A stretch of DNA of 64,000 nt. Source: Acidobacteriota bacterium. GTDB lineage: Bacteria; Acidobacteriota; Vicinamibacteria; Vicinamibacterales; CAVVIG01. The translations under genes and the position numbers were made by a program. A model generated the notes under the pieces. The model was not told where the DNA came from, searched no databases, and saw nothing but the letters and a program-made list of their open reading frames with translations. Location of the stretch: assembly GCA_003222395.1 (NCBI GenBank), contig QHWB01000040.1:384488-448487 (forward strand), written 5' to 3'. Positions 46,046-64,000 of this stretch are shown one piece after another (the stretch's first letter is position 1; every line of letters begins with the position of its first letter).

Positions 46046-46731
46046 TGCAACCAAGAAATCAACAGGCGCGACGGCGGGATGACGAGGTACTCGAAGCCGC
46101 GCGAAAACATCAGTGCATAGATCAGCAGGAATCCATACGGCCGGACGATGGTGTTGTATTGATAGCCGAGACGCCGCGGCAGCAATCCGCTCAGCACGTT
46201 GCCGCCGTCGAGCGGCGGAATCGGAACCATGTTGAAGACGGCGAGGAGCACGTTGAGGCGCATCGCCTGTCCGAGCAGCGATGCGATCGGGACCGAGAGG
46301 TTCGGCTCGCCGAGCGTGACGGGCGAGACCGGCAGCAGATGCAGCACCATCGCCGCGCCGACGGCCATCACGAAGTTGCTGGCCGGACCCGCGGCGGCCA
46401 CCAGCATGAAATCGCGTCTCGGATGCCCGAGCCGCCGCGTGTTGACCGGCACCGGCTTCGCCCAGCCGATGAGCGGCACGCCGCTGATCATCGCAATCAG
46501 CGGAAAGATCACGGTGCCGATCAGATCGGCGTGGACGATCGGATTCAGCGAGACGCGTCCGAGCAGACGCGCGGTGGGATCGCCGAGCTGGTCCGCCGTC
46601 CACGCGTGCGCCATCTCGTGGACGGTCAGCGAGAACAGCAGAACGACGAACCCGAAAAAAATTTGCGCGAAGTCGATGTGCGGCAAGGAGTAAAGGTTAA
46701 GGCCGGCTCGCGAAAAACGCAAGGACGGCAT
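46042..46731 (-). CDS. Site-2 protease family (M50) membrane metalloprotease
   Basis: About 229 residues with five or six membrane helices. The zinc site is SLTVHEMAHAWTA with the third ligand in VPIPPLDGGNVL; NPIVHADLIGTVIFP matches the small M50B group often found beside trpS and scpA. Role is unknown; relatives cleave transmembrane substrates. The start is uncertain: ATG 46731 overlaps uvrC by 35 bases, and a TTG near 46684 is an alternative. Operon member. Confidence 0.85.
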   Translation of the reverse strand: MPSLRFSRAGLNLYSLPHIDFAQIFFGFVVLLFSLTVHEMAHAWTADQLGDPTARLLGRVSLNPIVHADLIGTVIFPLIAMISGVPLIGWAKPVPVNTRRLGHPRRDFMLVAAAGPASNFVMAVGAAMVLHLLPVSPVTLGEPNLSVPIASLLGQAMRLNVLLAVFNMVPIPPLDGGNVLSGLLPRRLGYQYNTIVRPYGFLLIYALMFSRGFEYLVIPPSRLLISWLQ

Positions 46732-58035: not shown

Positions 58036-59871
58036 TTAAGCTGAGCACTCCCCGTCCATCACCACCGGCGCGAACTCGTCCGCTTCCCCGAGATCGACGA
58101 AATCGGCCGGCACCGCGTCGCCCGGCTGGAGCCGCTCGAGATCGGCGAGCTCGATTTTCACGCGACTCAGATCGACGCGCGCGAAGAACGCGGGTGCCGA
58201 CTCCTCGACCTCGCGCTCGCGCACGTAGAGCGCAATCAATCGCTCCAGCGCGTCGATGATGCGGCGGGCCGGGACCTTCGCGGCGAGCCGCGCGAACGCC
58301 GCGCCCTGCTCGCTCACGCCGCCGCCGACCATCACGAAGTACTGTGGCACGGCGCGGGAGCCGAGGCGCCGCACGCTGCCCTGGAATCCGATGGTCGCAA
58401 TGTGATGTTGGCCGCATCCGTTCGGGCAGCCGCTGATCTTGATGTGCGCCCCATCGGCGGCCGCGATCAGATCGGGCCGCGCCCGAAGATGGTCCTCGAG
58501 CAGCCGGCCGAGGCCGCGCGACTGCGTGACGGCCAGACGGCACGATTCCGCGCCTGGGCAGCTGACGACATCCGCGATTGTCGCCGCGTCGGCGAGTCCC
58601 AGCCCCGCCGCCGCGAGTCGACGATAGAGCTGCCGCGCGTTGGACGAATCGATCCATCGGAACAACAGATCCTGATCGATGGTTACGCGCACGCTGCCGT
58701 CGCCGTAGGCGCGCGCGAGCTCGCCGAGGACGCGCATCTGCTCGCTCGTCAGATCGCCCAGCGGCACCGTCGCCGTCGCCGAGACGTAACCGAACTGTTT
58801 CTGCGGGCGGACGTTCGTCGACCGCCAGCGCGCGTACGCATCGTCGCCCGACTGAAACACGGGAACGACCTGCGGCGTCAGGCCCGGACCGGACACACGG
58901 CCGGCCGTCACGCGCGACGCGATGCGGCCGACCGACGGCGACTCTTCCTTCGGCCACGCGGGAACCGACTCGGACGCTGGCGGATCGATGTCGAGCGTCG
59001 GGACGTCGCCGCGCAGCCGGCACGCGGTCAGCTCGCGGTCGTACTCCTCGCGCCACCGCGTCCATCCGAGCTGCTTGATCATGAATTTCATGCGGTTGCG
59101 CTGCTTGTGCTCGTAGTCACCGAAGCGCTTGAACACCCGGAGCACCGCTTCCGCGACGCGCAGGATCTCGGACGCCGGCAGGAAGTCGTGCAGCACCCCG
59201 GCGTTGGTGACCATGATGGAGGTGCCGCCGCCGGCGGTGACGCGGAAGCCGCGCCCGCCGTCGGGCCCGAGCTGCGCGCGGAAGCCGAGATCGTTGATGC
59301 CGATCATCACGTGATCGGTCGCGCAGCCTTCGAACGCGATCTTGAATTTGCGCGGCAGCGTCGAGCTCAAAGGATGCCGGAGGAGAAAACGGGTCAATCC
59401 CTCCGCGTACGGCGACACGTCGAAGCGCTCGTCGGCCGACACGCCCGCGTACGGGCAGCCGGTGATGTTTCGCACCGAGTTGCCGCACGCCTCGCGCGTC
59501 GTCAGACCGGTTTCGGCGAGGCGGCGCATCGCCGGCTCGACATCGTGCAGCTTGACGAAGTGGAACTGAACGTTCTGCCGCGTCGTGATGTGCCCGAAGC
59601 CGCGCGAGTGCCGCTCCGCCACGTCGGCGAGTGCATCGAGCTGGTCGGCCGTCAGCACGCCCTGTGGAATCTTGATGCGCAGCATCTGCGCATCTTCGGC
59701 CTGCCGCTGTCCGTAGGTGCCGCGCACCAGCCGGAACGCGCGCCACTGCTCGGGCGTCAGCTCACCGCGCTCGTACTTCTCGAGCGTGGCCACGAACTCG
59801 TCGATGTCCGCAACGCTGGCGAACGAGAGCCGCGCGCGGCCGAACGTTTTTGGATCGTCTACTACTGACAT
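58036..59871 (-). CDS. Siroheme/4Fe-4S nitrite or sulfite reductase
   Basis: A 611-residue hemoprotein carrying two ferredoxin-like and two siroheme-binding repeats. The cluster/siroheme Cys are in SCPGAESCRLAVTQSR and KISGCPNGCGQH; ITTRQNVQFHFV and TREACGNSVRNITGCPYAG match the first half. This family reduces sulfite to sulfide or nitrite to ammonia by six electrons, with ferredoxin as likely donor. The cysteine-rich leader upstream of the operon favours sulfite reductase. The Shine-Dalgarno GAGG before the ATG 59871 is supplied by repeat family C. It ends 80 bases downstream of the SAM riboswitch start region, both on the minus strand. Confidence 0.9.
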   Translation of the reverse strand: MSVVDDPKTFGRARLSFASVADIDEFVATLEKYERGELTPEQWRAFRLVRGTYGQRQAEDAQMLRIKIPQGVLTADQLDALADVAERHSRGFGHITTRQNVQFHFVKLHDVEPAMRRLAETGLTTREACGNSVRNITGCPYAGVSADERFDVSPYAEGLTRFLLRHPLSSTLPRKFKIAFEGCATDHVMIGINDLGFRAQLGPDGGRGFRVTAGGGTSIMVTNAGVLHDFLPASEILRVAEAVLRVFKRFGDYEHKQRNRMKFMIKQLGWTRWREEYDRELTACRLRGDVPTLDIDPPASESVPAWPKEESPSVGRIASRVTAGRVSGPGLTPQVVPVFQSGDDAYARWRSTNVRPQKQFGYVSATATVPLGDLTSEQMRVLGELARAYGDGSVRVTIDQDLLFRWIDSSNARQLYRRLAAAGLGLADAATIADVVSCPGAESCRLAVTQSRGLGRLLEDHLRARPDLIAAADGAHIKISGCPNGCGQHHIATIGFQGSVRRLGSRAVPQYFVMVGGGVSEQGAAFARLAAKVPARRIIDALERLIALYVREREVEESAPAFFARVDLSRVKIELADLERLQPGDAVPADFVDLGEADEFAPVVMDGECSA

Positions 59872-59883
59872 ATGCGCCTCGTA

Positions 59884-60007
59884 CGCTCGGCTGAAAGCCT
59901 CGCGCTACGTCCTTTGCTGAACGCCTCGTACGCCCGGCTCAAAGCCTCGCGCTATATCCGTGCGTTCACACGGTTGCCACTTCGTAGCGCGAGCCTTTCA
60001 GGCGAGC
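59884..60007. repeat. Three units of repeat family C
   Basis: CGCTCGGCTGAAAGCCTCGC (then GCTACG) at 59884-59909, CGCCCGGCTCAAAGCCTCGC at 59931-59950, and an inverted copy CGTAGCGCGAGCCTTTCAGG at 59982-60001. They fill the sumT/reductase junction, code for the sumT tail and supply the reductase ribosome binding site. Confidence 0.8.
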
Positions 60008-60737
60008 GCTTTTGCTCGGCCAACTGCAGGCTGACGGCGACCACGTCACCGACGACGATCGTGGCGGGACCGTTCGAATCGAGATCGACGCGTTCGAACG
60101 CGAGATCGTCCAGCGTGCCGCGCCAGACCTGCTGCTGCGGTCTCGTGCCGTCGACGATGACGGCTGCGGGCGTTCCGCGCGACCAGCCGCGATCGACGAG
60201 GGCGCATGCGAGCGCCGCCGATCGTGTCAGGCCCATGAGAATCACTATGGTCATCTGGTTCGGCCGCACCTGATCGATCGCCGACGCGAATGCGGTCTCG
60301 TCGTGACCCGACACGACGAGGAACGCCGAGGAGACGCCGCGATGCGTCACCGGAATGCCCGCGCTCGCCGGCGCCGCGATCGCGCTCGAGACCCCGGGGA
60401 CGATGTCGTACGGAACGCCGGCGCGCTGCAGCGCGAGCGCTTCCTCGCCGCCGCGACCGAACACGAACGGATCGCCGCCCTTCAGGCGGACAACGCGGCG
60501 GCCGCGCCGCGCGGCGCGAATCATCAGCCCGTGAATCGCTTCCTGCGACATGGCGTGTCGTCCGGCGCGCTTGCCGACGAAAAACTTCTGCGCACGGCGT
60601 GCATACTTCAGCACGCGATCGTCGATCAGCGCGTCGTACAGCACGAGATCGGCCGAGCGCAGCCGGGCGATTGCTTTCCGCGTCAGCAATCCCGGGTCGC
60701 CGGGACCGGCGCCGACGAGCGAGACGTGTCCTTTCAC
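59952..60737 (-). CDS. cobA: Uroporphyrinogen-III C-methyltransferase
   Basis: A 261-residue SUMT that makes precorrin-2 from uroporphyrinogen III, the first step of siroheme and B12 synthesis. VSLVGAGPGDPGLLTRKAIA, VVRLKGGDPFVFGRGGEEAL, VPGVSSAIAAPASAGIPVTHR and MGLTRSAALA are diagnostic. The second GTG (60737) is best: GGAGG lies nine bases upstream and it overlaps the met8 stop (GTGA). The C-terminal 22 residues (from AEQKRSPERLALR) are coded by repeat family C. In the operon between met8 and the reductase. Confidence 0.93.
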   Translation of the reverse strand: MKGHVSLVGAGPGDPGLLTRKAIARLRSADLVLYDALIDDRVLKYARRAQKFFVGKRAGRHAMSQEAIHGLMIRAARRGRRVVRLKGGDPFVFGRGGEEALALQRAGVPYDIVPGVSSAIAAPASAGIPVTHRGVSSAFLVVSGHDETAFASAIDQVRPNQMTIVILMGLTRSAALACALVDRGWSRGTPAAVIVDGTRPQQQVWRGTLDDLAFERVDLDSNGPATIVVGDVVAVSLQLAEQKRSPERLALRSGNRVNARI

Positions 60738-61417
60738 AACCACGAGTCCTCCGGTGCGCTGAGCCACGGAACATGCGCAAATGTGTTGTCTGCATGCGCT
60801 GCAGGTTCTGCGGTCGGTGCATAGAGATCGTTGAGCGCGTCGAGCAGCAGCGGCTTTCGGTCGTCCATCGGAATCCGCTCTCGACGCCAGATGATGCGCT
60901 GCCTGCGCGCCGCGTCCATCCATACCCGGAGATCGTGCGGAAGCAGCCGCTCGATCGCTTCGCGGAGCAACGCGGTGAGCGCGGGGGCATCGCCGCTCGT
61001 CGAGATCGCGATCGTCACGCCGTCGCGGCGGACGACGCCGCTCAGGTACGCGCTCGCGTTCGCCGGATCGTCGACCGCGTTCACGAACAGCCGCCGCTGT
61101 TCTGCAGCGTGGGCGACTTCGCGATTCGCTTCCGGCGTGGCCGCGGCCACGACCAGCCACGCATCGTCGAGATCGGAAGGAACGAATGGCCGGTGCGTCA
61201 GGTTCAGCTGTGGCGCGGGGCTTTCAGCCCCGCGATCGCGGCCCTGAAAGGGCCGCGCCACCTCCTCCAGGTCGTTCGAGATCTCCGGCGCGATGACGCG
61301 GACGCGGGCACCGACGGCGAGCAGCTGGCGCAGCTTCGCCGCCGCAACGCGGCCGCCGCCGACGAGGACGACCTGCCGTCCGGTCACGTTCAGGAAGAGT
61401 GGCAACAGTTCCGGCAT
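60734..61417 (-). CDS. Precorrin-2 dehydrogenase / sirohydrochlorin ferrochelatase (CysG N-terminal, Met8-like)
   Basis: A 227-residue protein oxidising precorrin-2 with NAD and inserting iron to make siroheme. The Rossmann loop is RQVVLVGGGRVAAAKLRQLL; the catalytic Asp is in VNAVDDPANASAYLSGVVRR; AISTSGDAPALTALLREAIE follows. Residues about 52-69 (VARPFQGRDRGAESPAPQ) are a repeat-encoded insertion in a surface loop. ATG 61417; GAGG three bases upstream, again part of repeat family C. It is the first structural gene after the cysteine-type attenuator. Confidence 0.9.
   Translation of the reverse strand: MPELLPLFLNVTGRQVVLVGGGRVAAAKLRQLLAVGARVRVIAPEISNDLEEVARPFQGRDRGAESPAPQLNLTHRPFVPSDLDDAWLVVAAATPEANREVAHAAEQRRLFVNAVDDPANASAYLSGVVRRDGVTIAISTSGDAPALTALLREAIERLLPHDLRVWMDAARRQRIIWRRERIPMDDRKPLLLDALNDLYAPTAEPAAHADNTFAHVPWLSAPEDSWL
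61211..61260. repeat. 50-base near-perfect palindrome in frame inside the Met8-like gene
   Basis: Outer arms TGGCGCGG and CCGCGCCA; inner hairpins GGGGCTTTCAGCCCC and GGCCCTGAAAGGGCC; centre CGCGATCGCG. It is a close relative of repeat family C (GGCTTTCAGCC core). Confidence 0.8.
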
Positions 61418-61420
61418 AAA

Positions 61421-61490
61421 CCTCGCTCGGCTAAAGCCTCGCGTTCCTCACTTGCTGAAAGCCTCGCGTTCCAACGCGTTCAAGGTCTCG
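61421..61490. repeat. Degenerate family C units in the attenuator leader
   Basis: CGCTCGGCTAAAGCCTCGCG and TTGCTGAAAGCCTCGCGTTC lie between the attenuator terminator and the Met8-like start codon. Confidence 0.65.
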
Positions 61491-61497
61491 CGCGACG

Positions 61498-61534
61498 AAA
61501 AAAAAGGCCCGGGAAGCTGTGAGCCTCCCGGGCC
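61498..61534 (-). terminator. Intrinsic terminator (attenuator) before the siroheme-sulfite reductase operon
   Basis: On the minus strand GGCCCGGGAGGC, loop TCACA, GCTTCCCGGGCC, then eight T: a 12-pair stem (one GU) and a perfect U tract. It lies between a Cys-rich leader ORF and the Met8-like gene, 80 bases upstream of its ATG, so it must terminate or be read through to express the operon. Segment 61520-61528 (GGAGGCTCA) in its 5' arm is exactly complementary to TGAGCCTCC in the leader ORF (61605-61613). Confidence 0.93.
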
Positions 61535-61563
61535 TTCAGGTCTCGTCGGTGTCTGAAACTAGA

Positions 61564-61668
61564 TCACGGTGCGACCGACTGTCTGCAGAGTAGACCATTG
61601 GCGCGGAGGCTCATGCAGAGCCTGCAACAACAACAGCCGCTACACATGCAGGTCGATTGACCGATCAA
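61564..61668 (-). CDS. Cysteine-rich leader peptide (34 residues), candidate cysteine attenuator
   Basis: Starting from TTG at 61668, five bases after a good Shine-Dalgarno (AAAGGAG), a 34-codon ORF ends in TGA at 61564. It has Cys at codons 7, 9, 12, 13, 14, 15, 18 and 28; the centre reads CSGCCCCRLC. Directly after the four Cys codons lies AGGCTC (61618-61623), which pairs with GAGCCT (61607-61612); the latter, as TGAGCCTCC, can instead pair with the 5' arm of the downstream terminator. This is the 1:2, 2:3, 3:4 logic of a trp-type attenuator. Low cysteinyl-tRNA would stall the ribosome over segment 1, free segment 2, and allow read-through. Confidence 0.85.
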   Translation of the reverse strand: MIGQSTCMCSGCCCCRLCMSLRANGLLCRQSVAP

Positions 61669-61727
61669 GATGGCTCCTTTTTACCGCCTTCTACCGACCG
61701 GCGTCAAGTTTTCGCGGCGGCGGACAG

Positions 61728-61733
61728 TACACT
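61728..61733 (+). promoter_or_regulatory. Candidate -10 (TACACT) of the M1 aminopeptidase
   Basis: TACACT ends six bases before the ATG at 61740, with GTGTCG between and no ribosome binding site. Confidence 0.45.
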
Positions 61734-61739
61734 GTGTCG

Positions 61740-64000
61740 ATGCGCGCGCCGACGGCATTCATTCTCGCGGCTTTGAGCTTCGTCAGCTTACCCGCTGTCG
61801 CACAGCGACTTCCGATGGACATCCGCCCCGAGCACTACGACCTGGCATTCACGGTCGACCTTGCGCGGGCGCGATTCGATGGCACAGAGACTATCCGCGT
61901 CGAGGTAGCTCAGCCGACCGCGCGAATCGTCCTCCATGCGTTCGAGCTGATAGTTCACGACGTGACCATCGGCGCCGGCGCGGCCGCGCAGAAGGCGTCG
62001 GTGATGCTGGACGAGCAGCGCCAGACGGCGACGCTGACGGTGTCGCGCCCGCTCGATCGCGGCGCGAACGAGATTCATATCCGGTACACCGGCGTCCTCA
62101 ACGATCAGCTGCGCGGGTTCTATTTGAGCAAGGGACGGAATCGCGCGTACGCCGTGACTCAGTTCGAATCGACCGATGCGCGCCGCGCATTTCCCTGCTT
62201 CGACGAACCGTCGTTCAAGGCGACGTTCGCCATCACGCTCACCGTCGATCGCGGCGACCGGGCGATCTCGAACGGAAAGATCGTCTCCGATGTGGCGGGT
62301 CCGTCGGTCGTGCAGCACACCGTGACCTTCGCGCGGACGCCGAAGATGTCGTCCTACCTCGTCGCGATGGCGGTCGGCGATTTCCAATGCTCAGAGGGCG
62401 GCGCCGACGGCATCCCGATCAGGATCTGCGCGACGCCCGAGAAGAAGGATTTGACGCGGCTCGCTCTCGACGCGGCGCAGCGGATTCTCCATTTCTACAA
62501 CGGCTACTACGCCATCAAGTACCCCTTCGAGAAGCTCGACGTCGTCGCCGTGCCCGACTTCGCGGCCGGCGCCATGGAGAACACGGCGGCGATCTTCTAC
62601 CGCGAAACCGACCTGCTGGCCGACGAGAAGTCGGCGTCGGTGGCGATGCGCAAGACGGTGGAATCGGTGCTCGCGCACGAGATGGCGCATCAATGGTTCG
62701 GCGATCTCGTCACGATGGCGTGGTGGGACGACATCTGGCTGAACGAGGGATTCGCGACGTGGATGGCGAACAAGCCGCTCGCCGCCGCGCACCCCGACTG
62801 GAACATGGCGGTCGACGAAGCGCACGAAACGCGGACGGCGCTGAGCCTCGACGCGCTGAGGTCGACGCGCCCGGTTCACAACGACGCGGAGACGCCCGCG
62901 GAGATCGATGAAGCGTTCGACGCGATTGCGTACGAGAAAGGCGCCTCGGTGCTGCGGATGATCGAGAGCTACGTCGGCGCCGAGGCGTTCCGCAAGGGGA
63001 TCAACGCGTACCTTCAGGCGCATGCGTACGGCAACGCGACGTCGGAGGACTTCTGGAGAACGATCGCGGCGAACTCGGGGAAGCCGGTCGATCGCATCCT
63101 GCCGACCTTCGTCAATCAGCCTGGCGTTCCGCTGCTGATCGTGTCGGACGTGCGATGCGAGGCGAACGCGTCGGCAACGCAGGCCACGGTCCGTCAGCAA
63201 CGGTTCATCGCGGACGGCGATCGTCGCGACCGAAACGAGCGATGGATGGTGCCGGTGTGCACGAAGGCTCCCGGCGCCGATGCCGAGACGTGCCGCGCCA
63301 TCTCGGAGCGCGAGCAGCGCCTCGACGTCGCGCGCGGCTGTCCGGCATGGTTCTTCGCGAACGCCAACGCGCGCGGCTACTACCGGACCGAATATCCTCC
63401 GTCGCTCCTGCGCGCGATGGCGCCCGAGATCCAGGCGAAGCTGACGCCGGCCGAGCGGCTCTCGCTCATCGACGACGAGTGGGCGCTGGTGCATGCGGGA
63501 CGCCACAGCGCAGCCGACTATCTGTCGCTGGCGTCTGGGTACGCGCGCGAGCACGTCAACGGCGTGCTCGGTGAGGTGACGGGGCGGTTCGCGTTCGTGC
63601 GCGACTACCTCACTCCGGCCGCCGCCGTGCCGCAGTTCGAGCGCGTCACGCGCACGCTGCTGCGGCCGCTTTTCGACGAGCTGGGATTCACATCCGGGTC
63701 GTCGGACAACGACGATCGACGGGCGCTGCGCGCGACGGTCGTCGGCGCGCTCGGGACGACGGGCAACGACCCCGACATTGCGGCGCGGGCGCGGGCGGCG
63801 CTCGATCGGTCGCTGTCGGGCGGCACCGCGCTTGATCCGACGCTGGCCGGGGCGGTCGTCGAGGTCGCGGCGCAGCACGGCGACGAGAAGCTGTTCGCCG
63901 CCCTGGCGGCCGCGGCGGATCGCGCCGCGTCGCCCGAGGATCAGTACCGCTACCTCTACGCGCTGACCGCGTTTCGCGAGCCGGCCTTGATCGATCGCGC
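61740..64000 (+). CDS. M1 family zinc aminopeptidase (partial, runs off the window)
   Basis: At least 753 residues, without a stop before the window ends. A signal peptide (MRAPTAFILAALSFVSLPAV, cleavage after VAQ) precedes the M1 N-terminal beta domain (YDLAFTVDLARARFDGTETI). The exopeptidase motif is GAMENTAAIFY and the zinc site HEMAHQWFGDL followed by WLNEGFATWMA. A large helical ERAP-like C-terminal domain follows (from about residue 520). It removes N-terminal residues from peptides, probably in the periplasm. ATG 61740 gives the signal peptide. Divergent from the siroheme-sulfite reductase operon. Confidence 0.93.
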   Translation, partial: MRAPTAFILAALSFVSLPAVAQRLPMDIRPEHYDLAFTVDLARARFDGTETIRVEVAQPTARIVLHAFELIVHDVTIGAGAAAQKASVMLDEQRQTATLTVSRPLDRGANEIHIRYTGVLNDQLRGFYLSKGRNRAYAVTQFESTDARRAFPCFDEPSFKATFAITLTVDRGDRAISNGKIVSDVAGPSVVQHTVTFARTPKMSSYLVAMAVGDFQCSEGGADGIPIRICATPEKKDLTRLALDAAQRILHFYNGYYAIKYPFEKLDVVAVPDFAAGAMENTAAIFYRETDLLADEKSASVAMRKTVESVLAHEMAHQWFGDLVTMAWWDDIWLNEGFATWMANKPLAAAHPDWNMAVDEAHETRTALSLDALRSTRPVHNDAETPAEIDEAFDAIAYEKGASVLRMIESYVGAEAFRKGINAYLQAHAYGNATSEDFWRTIAANSGKPVDRILPTFVNQPGVPLLIVSDVRCEANASATQATVRQQRFIADGDRRDRNERWMVPVCTKAPGADAETCRAISEREQRLDVARGCPAWFFANANARGYYRTEYPPSLLRAMAPEIQAKLTPAERLSLIDDEWALVHAGRHSAADYLSLASGYAREHVNGVLGEVTGRFAFVRDYLTPAAAVPQFERVTRTLLRPLFDELGFTSGSSDNDDRRALRATVVGALGTTGNDPDIAARARAALDRSLSGGTALDPTLAGAVVEVAAQHGDEKLFAALAAAADRAASPEDQYRYLYALTAFREPALIDR

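Follow-up and report, generated by a model that had tools for sequence, protein, structure and literature searches.

A putative cysteine-sensing, Trp-type attenuator upstream of siroheme and sulfite reductase genes in Acidobacteriota

Overview

On the minus strand of the window, by which we mean the whole 64,000-nucleotide stretch analyzed here, the region ahead of a met8-like gene very probably constitutes a ribosome-mediated transcription attenuator that, judging from its sequence and those of its relatives, would sense charged tRNA-Cys. A sequence-only reading of the window had proposed a Trp-type attenuator with a cysteine-rich leader peptide at this site, and this proposal gains support from the Cys clusters, the promoter motif, the terminator, helices that co-vary over 68 elements and the recurrence of such leaders at many sulfur loci. 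The Acidobacteriota are a group of soil and water bacteria. Ribosome-mediated attenuators of the Trp/His type are known from Proteobacteria. The element shares with the Trp/His type the codons for the pathway amino acid in the leader ORF, the mutually exclusive helices 1:2, 2:3 and 3:4, and the intrinsic terminator, but differs from it in the predicted sensing of Cys, in an apparently leaderless ORF and in a second antiterminator block (A:B) outside helix 2:3.

Architecture of the leader region

The features of the region are collected in Table 1. The TTG-started frame with eight Cys among its 34 codons and a stop at 61564 (TGA, 61566-61564), which had been described by the sequence-only reading, is present, as are the run of four Cys codons with segment 1 directly behind it and the strong terminator before the Met8-like gene. 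The terminator, which lies between the leader ORF and the first gene, has a 16-pair stem (61537-61503) with a 3-nt loop, a T tract running to about 61498 and a computed energy of -30.9 kcal/mol. Helices 1:2 (AGGCTC 61623-61618 with GAGCCT 61612-61607; hairpin of -9.8 kcal/mol) and 2:3 (TGAGCCTCC 61613-61605 with GGAGGCTCA 61528-61520) are both exact, as had been drawn, but the predicted antiterminator is longer than drawn, running from 2:3 via a GCC:GGC core to a GGTCT:AGACC pairing, with a computed energy of -30.4 kcal/mol for the long duplex. In duplex calculations, segment 2, a GCGCC-like core and GGTCT pair in most elements with AGACC, GGC and the distal arm of the terminator. A terminator scan of the window by itself found one terminator against 1.4 expected by shuffling, i.e., not above chance; the feature set exceeds chance because it is conserved in relatives.

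Table 1. Coordinates of the predicted attenuator and of the genes behind it in the window
Feature	Position	Strand	Basis
Predicted -35 box TTGACG	61702..61707	-	TTGAC in 99/115 elements
Predicted -10 box TAAAAA, overlapping AAAGGAG	61678..61683	-	Aligned promoters of relatives
Predicted transcript start, 1-3 nt 5′ of the TTG codon	61669..61671	-	Inferred from -10 distance and start-codon peak in relatives
Leader ORF, 34 codons, 8 Cys, TTG start	61564..61668	-	Sequence
Putative regulatory Cys codons TGT TGT TGT TGC	61624..61635	-	Cys cluster retained in relatives
Segment 1, AGGCTC, immediately 3′ of the Cys run	61618..61623	-	Cognate 1:2 pairing (68 elements)
Segment 2, TGAGCCTCC, alternative partners segment 1 and terminator 5′ arm	61605..61613	-	Cognate 2:3 pairing (68 elements)
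Segment A, GCC core and GGTCT, putative second part of the antiterminator	61592..61602	-	Cognate A:B pairing (68 elements)
Segment B, AGACC, just 5′ of the terminator, predicted to pair with GGTCT	61539..61543	-	Duplex and cognate pairing
Intrinsic terminator hairpin, segments 3 and 4	61503..61537	-	Conserved in relatives
Met8-like precorrin-2 dehydrogenase, putatively regulated	60734..61417	-	Pfam NAD_binding_7, Sirohm_synth_M
SumT-like uroporphyrinogen methyltransferase, putatively regulated, start not fixed	59952..60752	-	Pfam TP_methylase
Sulfite/nitrite reductase, putatively regulated	58036..59871	-	Pfam NIR_SIR, NIR_SIR_ferr

Beyond the sulfite/nitrite reductase gene follow a homoserine dehydrogenase and then a PALP-family enzyme, which we take to be threonine-synthase-like. 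The neighbor on the opposite side is divergent, its frame being open from 61569 with MRAPTAF... from 61740, and looks M1-aminopeptidase-like; since it is divergent, the terminator is not needed by any upstream gene. A terminator placed between divergent genes and facing met8 is most simply the end of a leader transcript.

Conservation at met8 loci

Met8 was matched in 47 of 60 genomes, among them that of the window (7.74 Mb, 118 contigs), and its closest relatives are encoded by metagenome-assembled genomes (MAGs), most of which bear names such as Acidobacteria, Luteitalea or Vicinamibacterales. There are 24 same-family relatives with a met8 match, of which 23 were given as loci and 21 came with upstream sequence. 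A short Cys-rich ORF with a Cys cluster, followed by the terminator, is kept upstream of met8 in 17 of these 21 loci, as would be expected of a Trp-type leader. The sequence-only reading had held that loss of the Cys leader with retention of the terminator would speak against attenuation. This combination occurs at two of the 21 loci (L023 and L026), where promoter and terminator are kept and the Cys leader is lost or without a Cys cluster, possibly representing decay to a differently controlled element, but not at the 17. Neither the Cys leader nor the terminator was found at the other two loci (L022 and L034).

One locus carrying this acidobacterial met8 region (L128, CALQBJ020000131.1) comes from a MAG titled Bifidobacterium breve, a label that looks wrong.

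Co-variation of the alternative helices

We ran a cognate-versus-swapped partner test on 68 elements with 20,000 permutations. Cognate partners beat swapped ones for 1:2 (z = -7.0), 2:3 (z = -5.2) and A:B (z = -6.1), each level being reached in 0 of the 20,000 permutations, and the control pairings of segment 2 with B (z = -0.2) and of A with the distal arm (z = -1.3) give no signal in the same 68 elements. The terminator's own z of -15 is not independent evidence because the terminator was used for selecting the elements. Over these elements, then, the mutually exclusive helices 1:2, 2:3 and 3:4 are kept in evolution. The co-variation that the sequence-only reading had called for is thereby supported over the full set, but it is weak in the 19 met8-linked elements alone (1:2 z = -1.9, 2:3 z = -1.4, A:B z = -2.2), 18 of which, the window included, belong to one family and one (L019) to another, and it is mixed on an alignment.

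That alignment, A3, holds 51 sequences, one of which supplied the structure used for its pair counts (a further alignment, A1, shifts the window's segment B by one base). In A3, 77.9% of the cells pair as against 73.5 ± 0.8 in shuffled versions, the covariation score is 0.175 as against 0.125 ± 0.010, and there are 32 double-change cells as against 15.0 ± 3.0, each value being reached in 0 of 500 shuffles. Slid versions of the structure give up to 31 double-change cells, at most 55.4% paired cells and a score of at most 0.134. The number of pairs with a double change (8 against 7.0 in shuffles, reached in 186 of 500) and that of pair types (25 against 21.4, reached in 36 of 500) do not stand out in A3. 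MAFFT and RNAalifold alone recover the terminator and a 3-pair helix but not the full antiterminator, because the latter shares bases with the terminator; hence the use of the cognate-swap test.

Promoter and start of the leader ORF

A script-made set of 115 distinct candidate Cys-leader/terminator elements was drawn from the retrieved loci, including a few doubtful ones with an overlapping second frame (L061, L147, L156, L172 and L180). A TTGAC motif lies at most 100 nt upstream of the Cys cluster in 99 of them, against 8.0 expected by shuffling, and alignment of these 99 promoters reveals an A/T-rich hexamer, the presumptive -10 box, at offsets 24-29 from TTGAC. When ATG or GTG codons 37-40 nt after TTGAC are counted without choosing, 72 are in frame and 1 is out of frame in the 99 elements; an in-frame start is found 30-50 nt behind TTGAC in 94 of the 115. 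With the -10 box at these offsets and the usual distance from it, transcripts should therefore start at, or a few nucleotides before, the start codon. The promoter scan of the window found no promoter by its own criteria.

If the transcript starts near 61670, then the AAAGGAG at 61680-61674 would lie within the promoter and outside the RNA. The motif, which the sequence-only reading had listed, does exist, but a role in ribosome binding is doubtful given its overlap with the inferred -10 box. A 4-nt Shine-Dalgarno match is absent in 85 of the 94 elements with a placed promoter, and we reject a Shine-Dalgarno-led leader as the general rule; the window's element is among the nine with a match, which sits on the inferred -10 box and discriminator. 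By the distance from promoter to start codon, as distinct from 5′-end mapping, the polycysteine ORF upstream of the sulfur genes qualifies as leaderless, and we regard the window's leader ORF as probably leaderless or near-leaderless. Its TTG start, where relatives mostly have GTG or ATG, is unusual for a leaderless ORF and counts against this.

The divergent M1-aminopeptidase-like gene may also be leaderless, since a TACACT box precedes its ATG (61740) by 6 bases (window 61728-61742).

Distribution across sulfur operons

A gapped pattern of two TGT codons and a terminator gave 68 matches (overlapping ones included) in 25 of 27 family genomes, while the reversed pattern, run as a control, still matched 16 times in 11 of the 27; since the control is this high, the pattern served for locus finding only. 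The covariance model R1, built from 18 met8 leaders, matches in 23 of the 27 family genomes and has a second set of matches at other loci, which are mostly further Cys leaders upstream of other genes. The broader model R2, built from 51 sequences, matches in 117 of 162 genomes of the order and in 46 of 396 genomes of a phylum sample, 31 of them from the same order, 3 from the same class and 12 from elsewhere. Nine of these 12 matches outside the class were inspected, with a Cys leader found in four (G475, G374, G359 and G291) and none in five; in the remaining three the match to the model began only at position 95 or 96. R2 finds three elements (E below 1e-4) in the window's genome, including that of met8. 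The second lies about 30 kb off on the same contig, before genes for an AhpC/TSA-domain protein, DoxX and a glyoxalase-family protein, and the third on contig 15, before a PF03601 protein.

From the R2 matches we hand-chose 60 regions, dropped nine (seven without a Cys leader and two without an ORF) and kept the 51 in which a leader with 3 or more Cys precedes an ORF. As many as 41 of these 51 ORFs belong to sulfate-assimilation, siroheme, sulfite-transport or cysteine-synthesis families, as the genes of the sensed amino acid's biosynthesis would, though the choice of the best ORF behind a match may take a second gene. The families are PAPS-reductase-type (CysH/CysD), EF-Tu-type GTPase, ATP sulfurylase/APS kinase, TauE, siroheme synthase, SumT, sulfite reductase, CbiX, PALP (cysteine-synthase-like) and ThiF/JAB; six EF-Tu-type GTPases are presumed from their domains to be CysN and counted as such, and two siroheme-type matches (L282 and L290) have NAD_binding_7 only. 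The ten ORFs outside the count comprise four PF03601 proteins, which we assume to be putative sulfate exporters, two NMT1-type binding proteins, one AhpC/TSA protein, two RimK-type ATP-grasp proteins and one outer-membrane receptor. R2 holds no gene information, but many of its training sequences come from met8-chosen loci, so the link to sulfur genes is largely, not wholly, independent.

In one genome two divergently oriented Cys leaders lie less than 400 bp apart (G101:C1:46020-46142 on the minus and 46286-46411 on the plus strand), one before a TauE-like gene and the other before a stretch with an EF-Tu-type GTPase domain.

Codon choice in the leaders also deserves mention. In 46 elements whose loci had been selected without the TGT pattern, TGT accounts for 152 of 248 Cys codons, counted from the cluster through to the stop, against 15 of 115 in 31 downstream genes and 3 of 25 in five window genes. 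The use of a rare codon at the regulatory positions would fit a sensitive sensor; alternatively, TGT could be preferred through avoidance of G+C-rich pairing.

We lean, with confidence only a little better than even, toward the view that the sulfur/cysteine regulon of vicinamibacterial Acidobacteriota is controlled by distributed elements, each operon having its own polycysteine leader, leaderless and coupled to an antiterminator of two blocks, which may substitute for a protein regulator of the cysteine genes, and that Myxococcota combine the same sensing with Shine-Dalgarno sequestration as output. The element further provides a way to recognize sulfur-regulated operons from sequence in bacteria that are mostly uncultured.

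Predicted mechanism

We propose that RNA polymerase would initiate on the minus strand near 61670 and that the leader ORF would be translated from its leaderless or near-leaderless start. When Cys-tRNA is scarce, the ribosome would wait on the Cys run and cover segment 1, leaving segment 2 and the GCC/GGTCT stretch to pair with AGACC and the terminator 5′ arm; with this antiterminator formed, the polymerase could read into met8, sumT and the sulfite reductase gene. When cysteine is ample, the ribosome would move on, segment 2 would be covered by it or paired with segment 1, and the terminator would form, ending transcription before met8.

Folding calculations were made on the pre-terminator transcripts of the 115 elements with the ribosome on the last Cys codon, at the stop codon or absent. 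With a stall on the Cys run, the share of the terminator 5′ arm that is taken by the leader averages 0.81 and exceeds 0.5 in 111 of 115 elements; it averages 0.41 when the ribosome sits at the stop codon and 0.45 when there is none. The respective values for shuffled leaders are 0.44, 0.17 and 0.24. A stall gains more than 0.2 over the stop-codon state in only 65 of the 115. The window's own element gives 0.81 in all three states and hence no difference from stalling, and another element of the same genome (L204) likewise gains nothing from a stall (0.48, 0.34, 0.48). The full transcript of the window folds into the terminator in every state tried, where equilibrium folding cannot separate the states, and switching would therefore have to be kinetic. 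For the window's element we infer switching from timing and from the relatives, and a response to cysteine is predicted. The stop codon of the leader ORF lies well downstream of segment 2, which counts against this picture.

Alternative explanations

The polycysteine ORF might instead act through translational or Rho-type attenuation as in mycobacteria, the terminator being incidental. M. smegmatis polycysteine leaderless ORFs are described as acting on translation in the accessible portions of PMC9031893 and PMC13236596, and two loci from MAGs labelled Myxococcales/Deltaproteobacteria (L149 and L154) have no T-run terminator and, by eye, a Shine-Dalgarno-sequestering look. This account is nevertheless improbable for the window, given that the terminator is strongly conserved, that its 5′ arm co-varies with the leader over the 68 elements and that in four relatives (L007, L008, L009 and L011) the start codon of met8 follows directly on its T tract.

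We give still less credence to the idea that the small ORF is a gene for a functional Cys-rich peptide, metal- or redox-active, from which the terminator merely separates met8: the Cys content is high and the leader peptide is partly conserved within the family, but outside the Cys cluster the peptides vary widely between loci, yet the RNA pairing is kept, and the leaders precede many different sulfur genes. Equally hard to credit is a riboswitch that binds a metabolite, or a T-box, in which the Cys-rich frame would be accidental. A terminator upstream of sulfur genes is what it would have, but the conserved parts are the start codon, the frame and the Cys cluster, and Rfam gave no match at gathering score for 15 related loci, the seven matches within window 61200-62000 all being below gathering. 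A Trp-type cysteine attenuator remains our preferred reading.

The two Myxococcales/Deltaproteobacteria loci (approximately L149:2830-3000 and L154:540-717) carry a Cys-rich leader ORF before a met8-like gene, and by eye a stretch facing the Shine-Dalgarno region has its complement in a segment of the leader, an arrangement that suggests a translational cysteine attenuator.

Relation to known systems

The sequence-only reading had pointed to cysteine-responsive leader peptides in actinobacteria, and the accessible text of PMC1262725 predicts Cys leaders before cys operons of Mycobacterium and Propionibacterium acnes and before cbs of Bifidobacterium longum, describing no conserved terminator hairpins for the Mycobacterium regions. 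Polycysteine leaderless ORFs with attenuation acting on translation are ascribed to Canestrari et al. 2020 in the portions seen of PMC9031893 and PMC13236596, and the part seen of PMC9094748 mentions cysteine-rich regulatory sORFs. As far as these partial sources go, the present elements share with the mycobacterial ones a leaderless ORF that carries runs of Cys codons and lies upstream of cysteine/sulfur operons, but differ in the conserved intrinsic terminator and antiterminator and in the phylum. As the conserved terminator contradicts the mycobacterial description in the accessible text of PMC1262725, we do not class the element with the mycobacterial ORFs.

A further parallel is the uORFC-8-2 motif before cysS of Rhodobacterales, for which the portion seen of PMC8632094 gives tandem Cys codons, an intrinsic terminator and a proposed ribosome-mediated attenuation. 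On that partial account it has two Cys codons usually at positions 14-15 and is confined to cysS and to alphaproteobacteria, unlike the acidobacterial elements with their long Cys runs (four in a row in the window) and their place before met8 and many sulfur operons.

By its sequence, the window's element would work like a trp attenuator with a type of sensor common to the mycobacterial ORFs. The sequence-only reading knew of no cysteine leader peptide in Acidobacteriota, and our literature searches on cysteine leader peptides and attenuation, with most subscription papers beyond reach, agree in giving no report for this phylum. Within that literature, the combination of a leaderless ORF with Trp-type antitermination across a sulfur regulon in Acidobacteriota appears new: two devices that stand apart in the sources found, the leaderless sensor ORF and Trp-type antitermination, are joined here.

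A dispersed repeat next to met8

The sequence at window 61421-61500, reaching up to met8, is a dispersed repeat. It contains a duplicated GGAACGCGAGGCTTT-like piece that is also present before met8 at two other loci (L006 and L010), and three copies of its part at 61454-61500, with 80-82% identity and a spacing of 52 nt, occur on contig 64 of the same genome (L002-L004, G000:C64:163952-164104).
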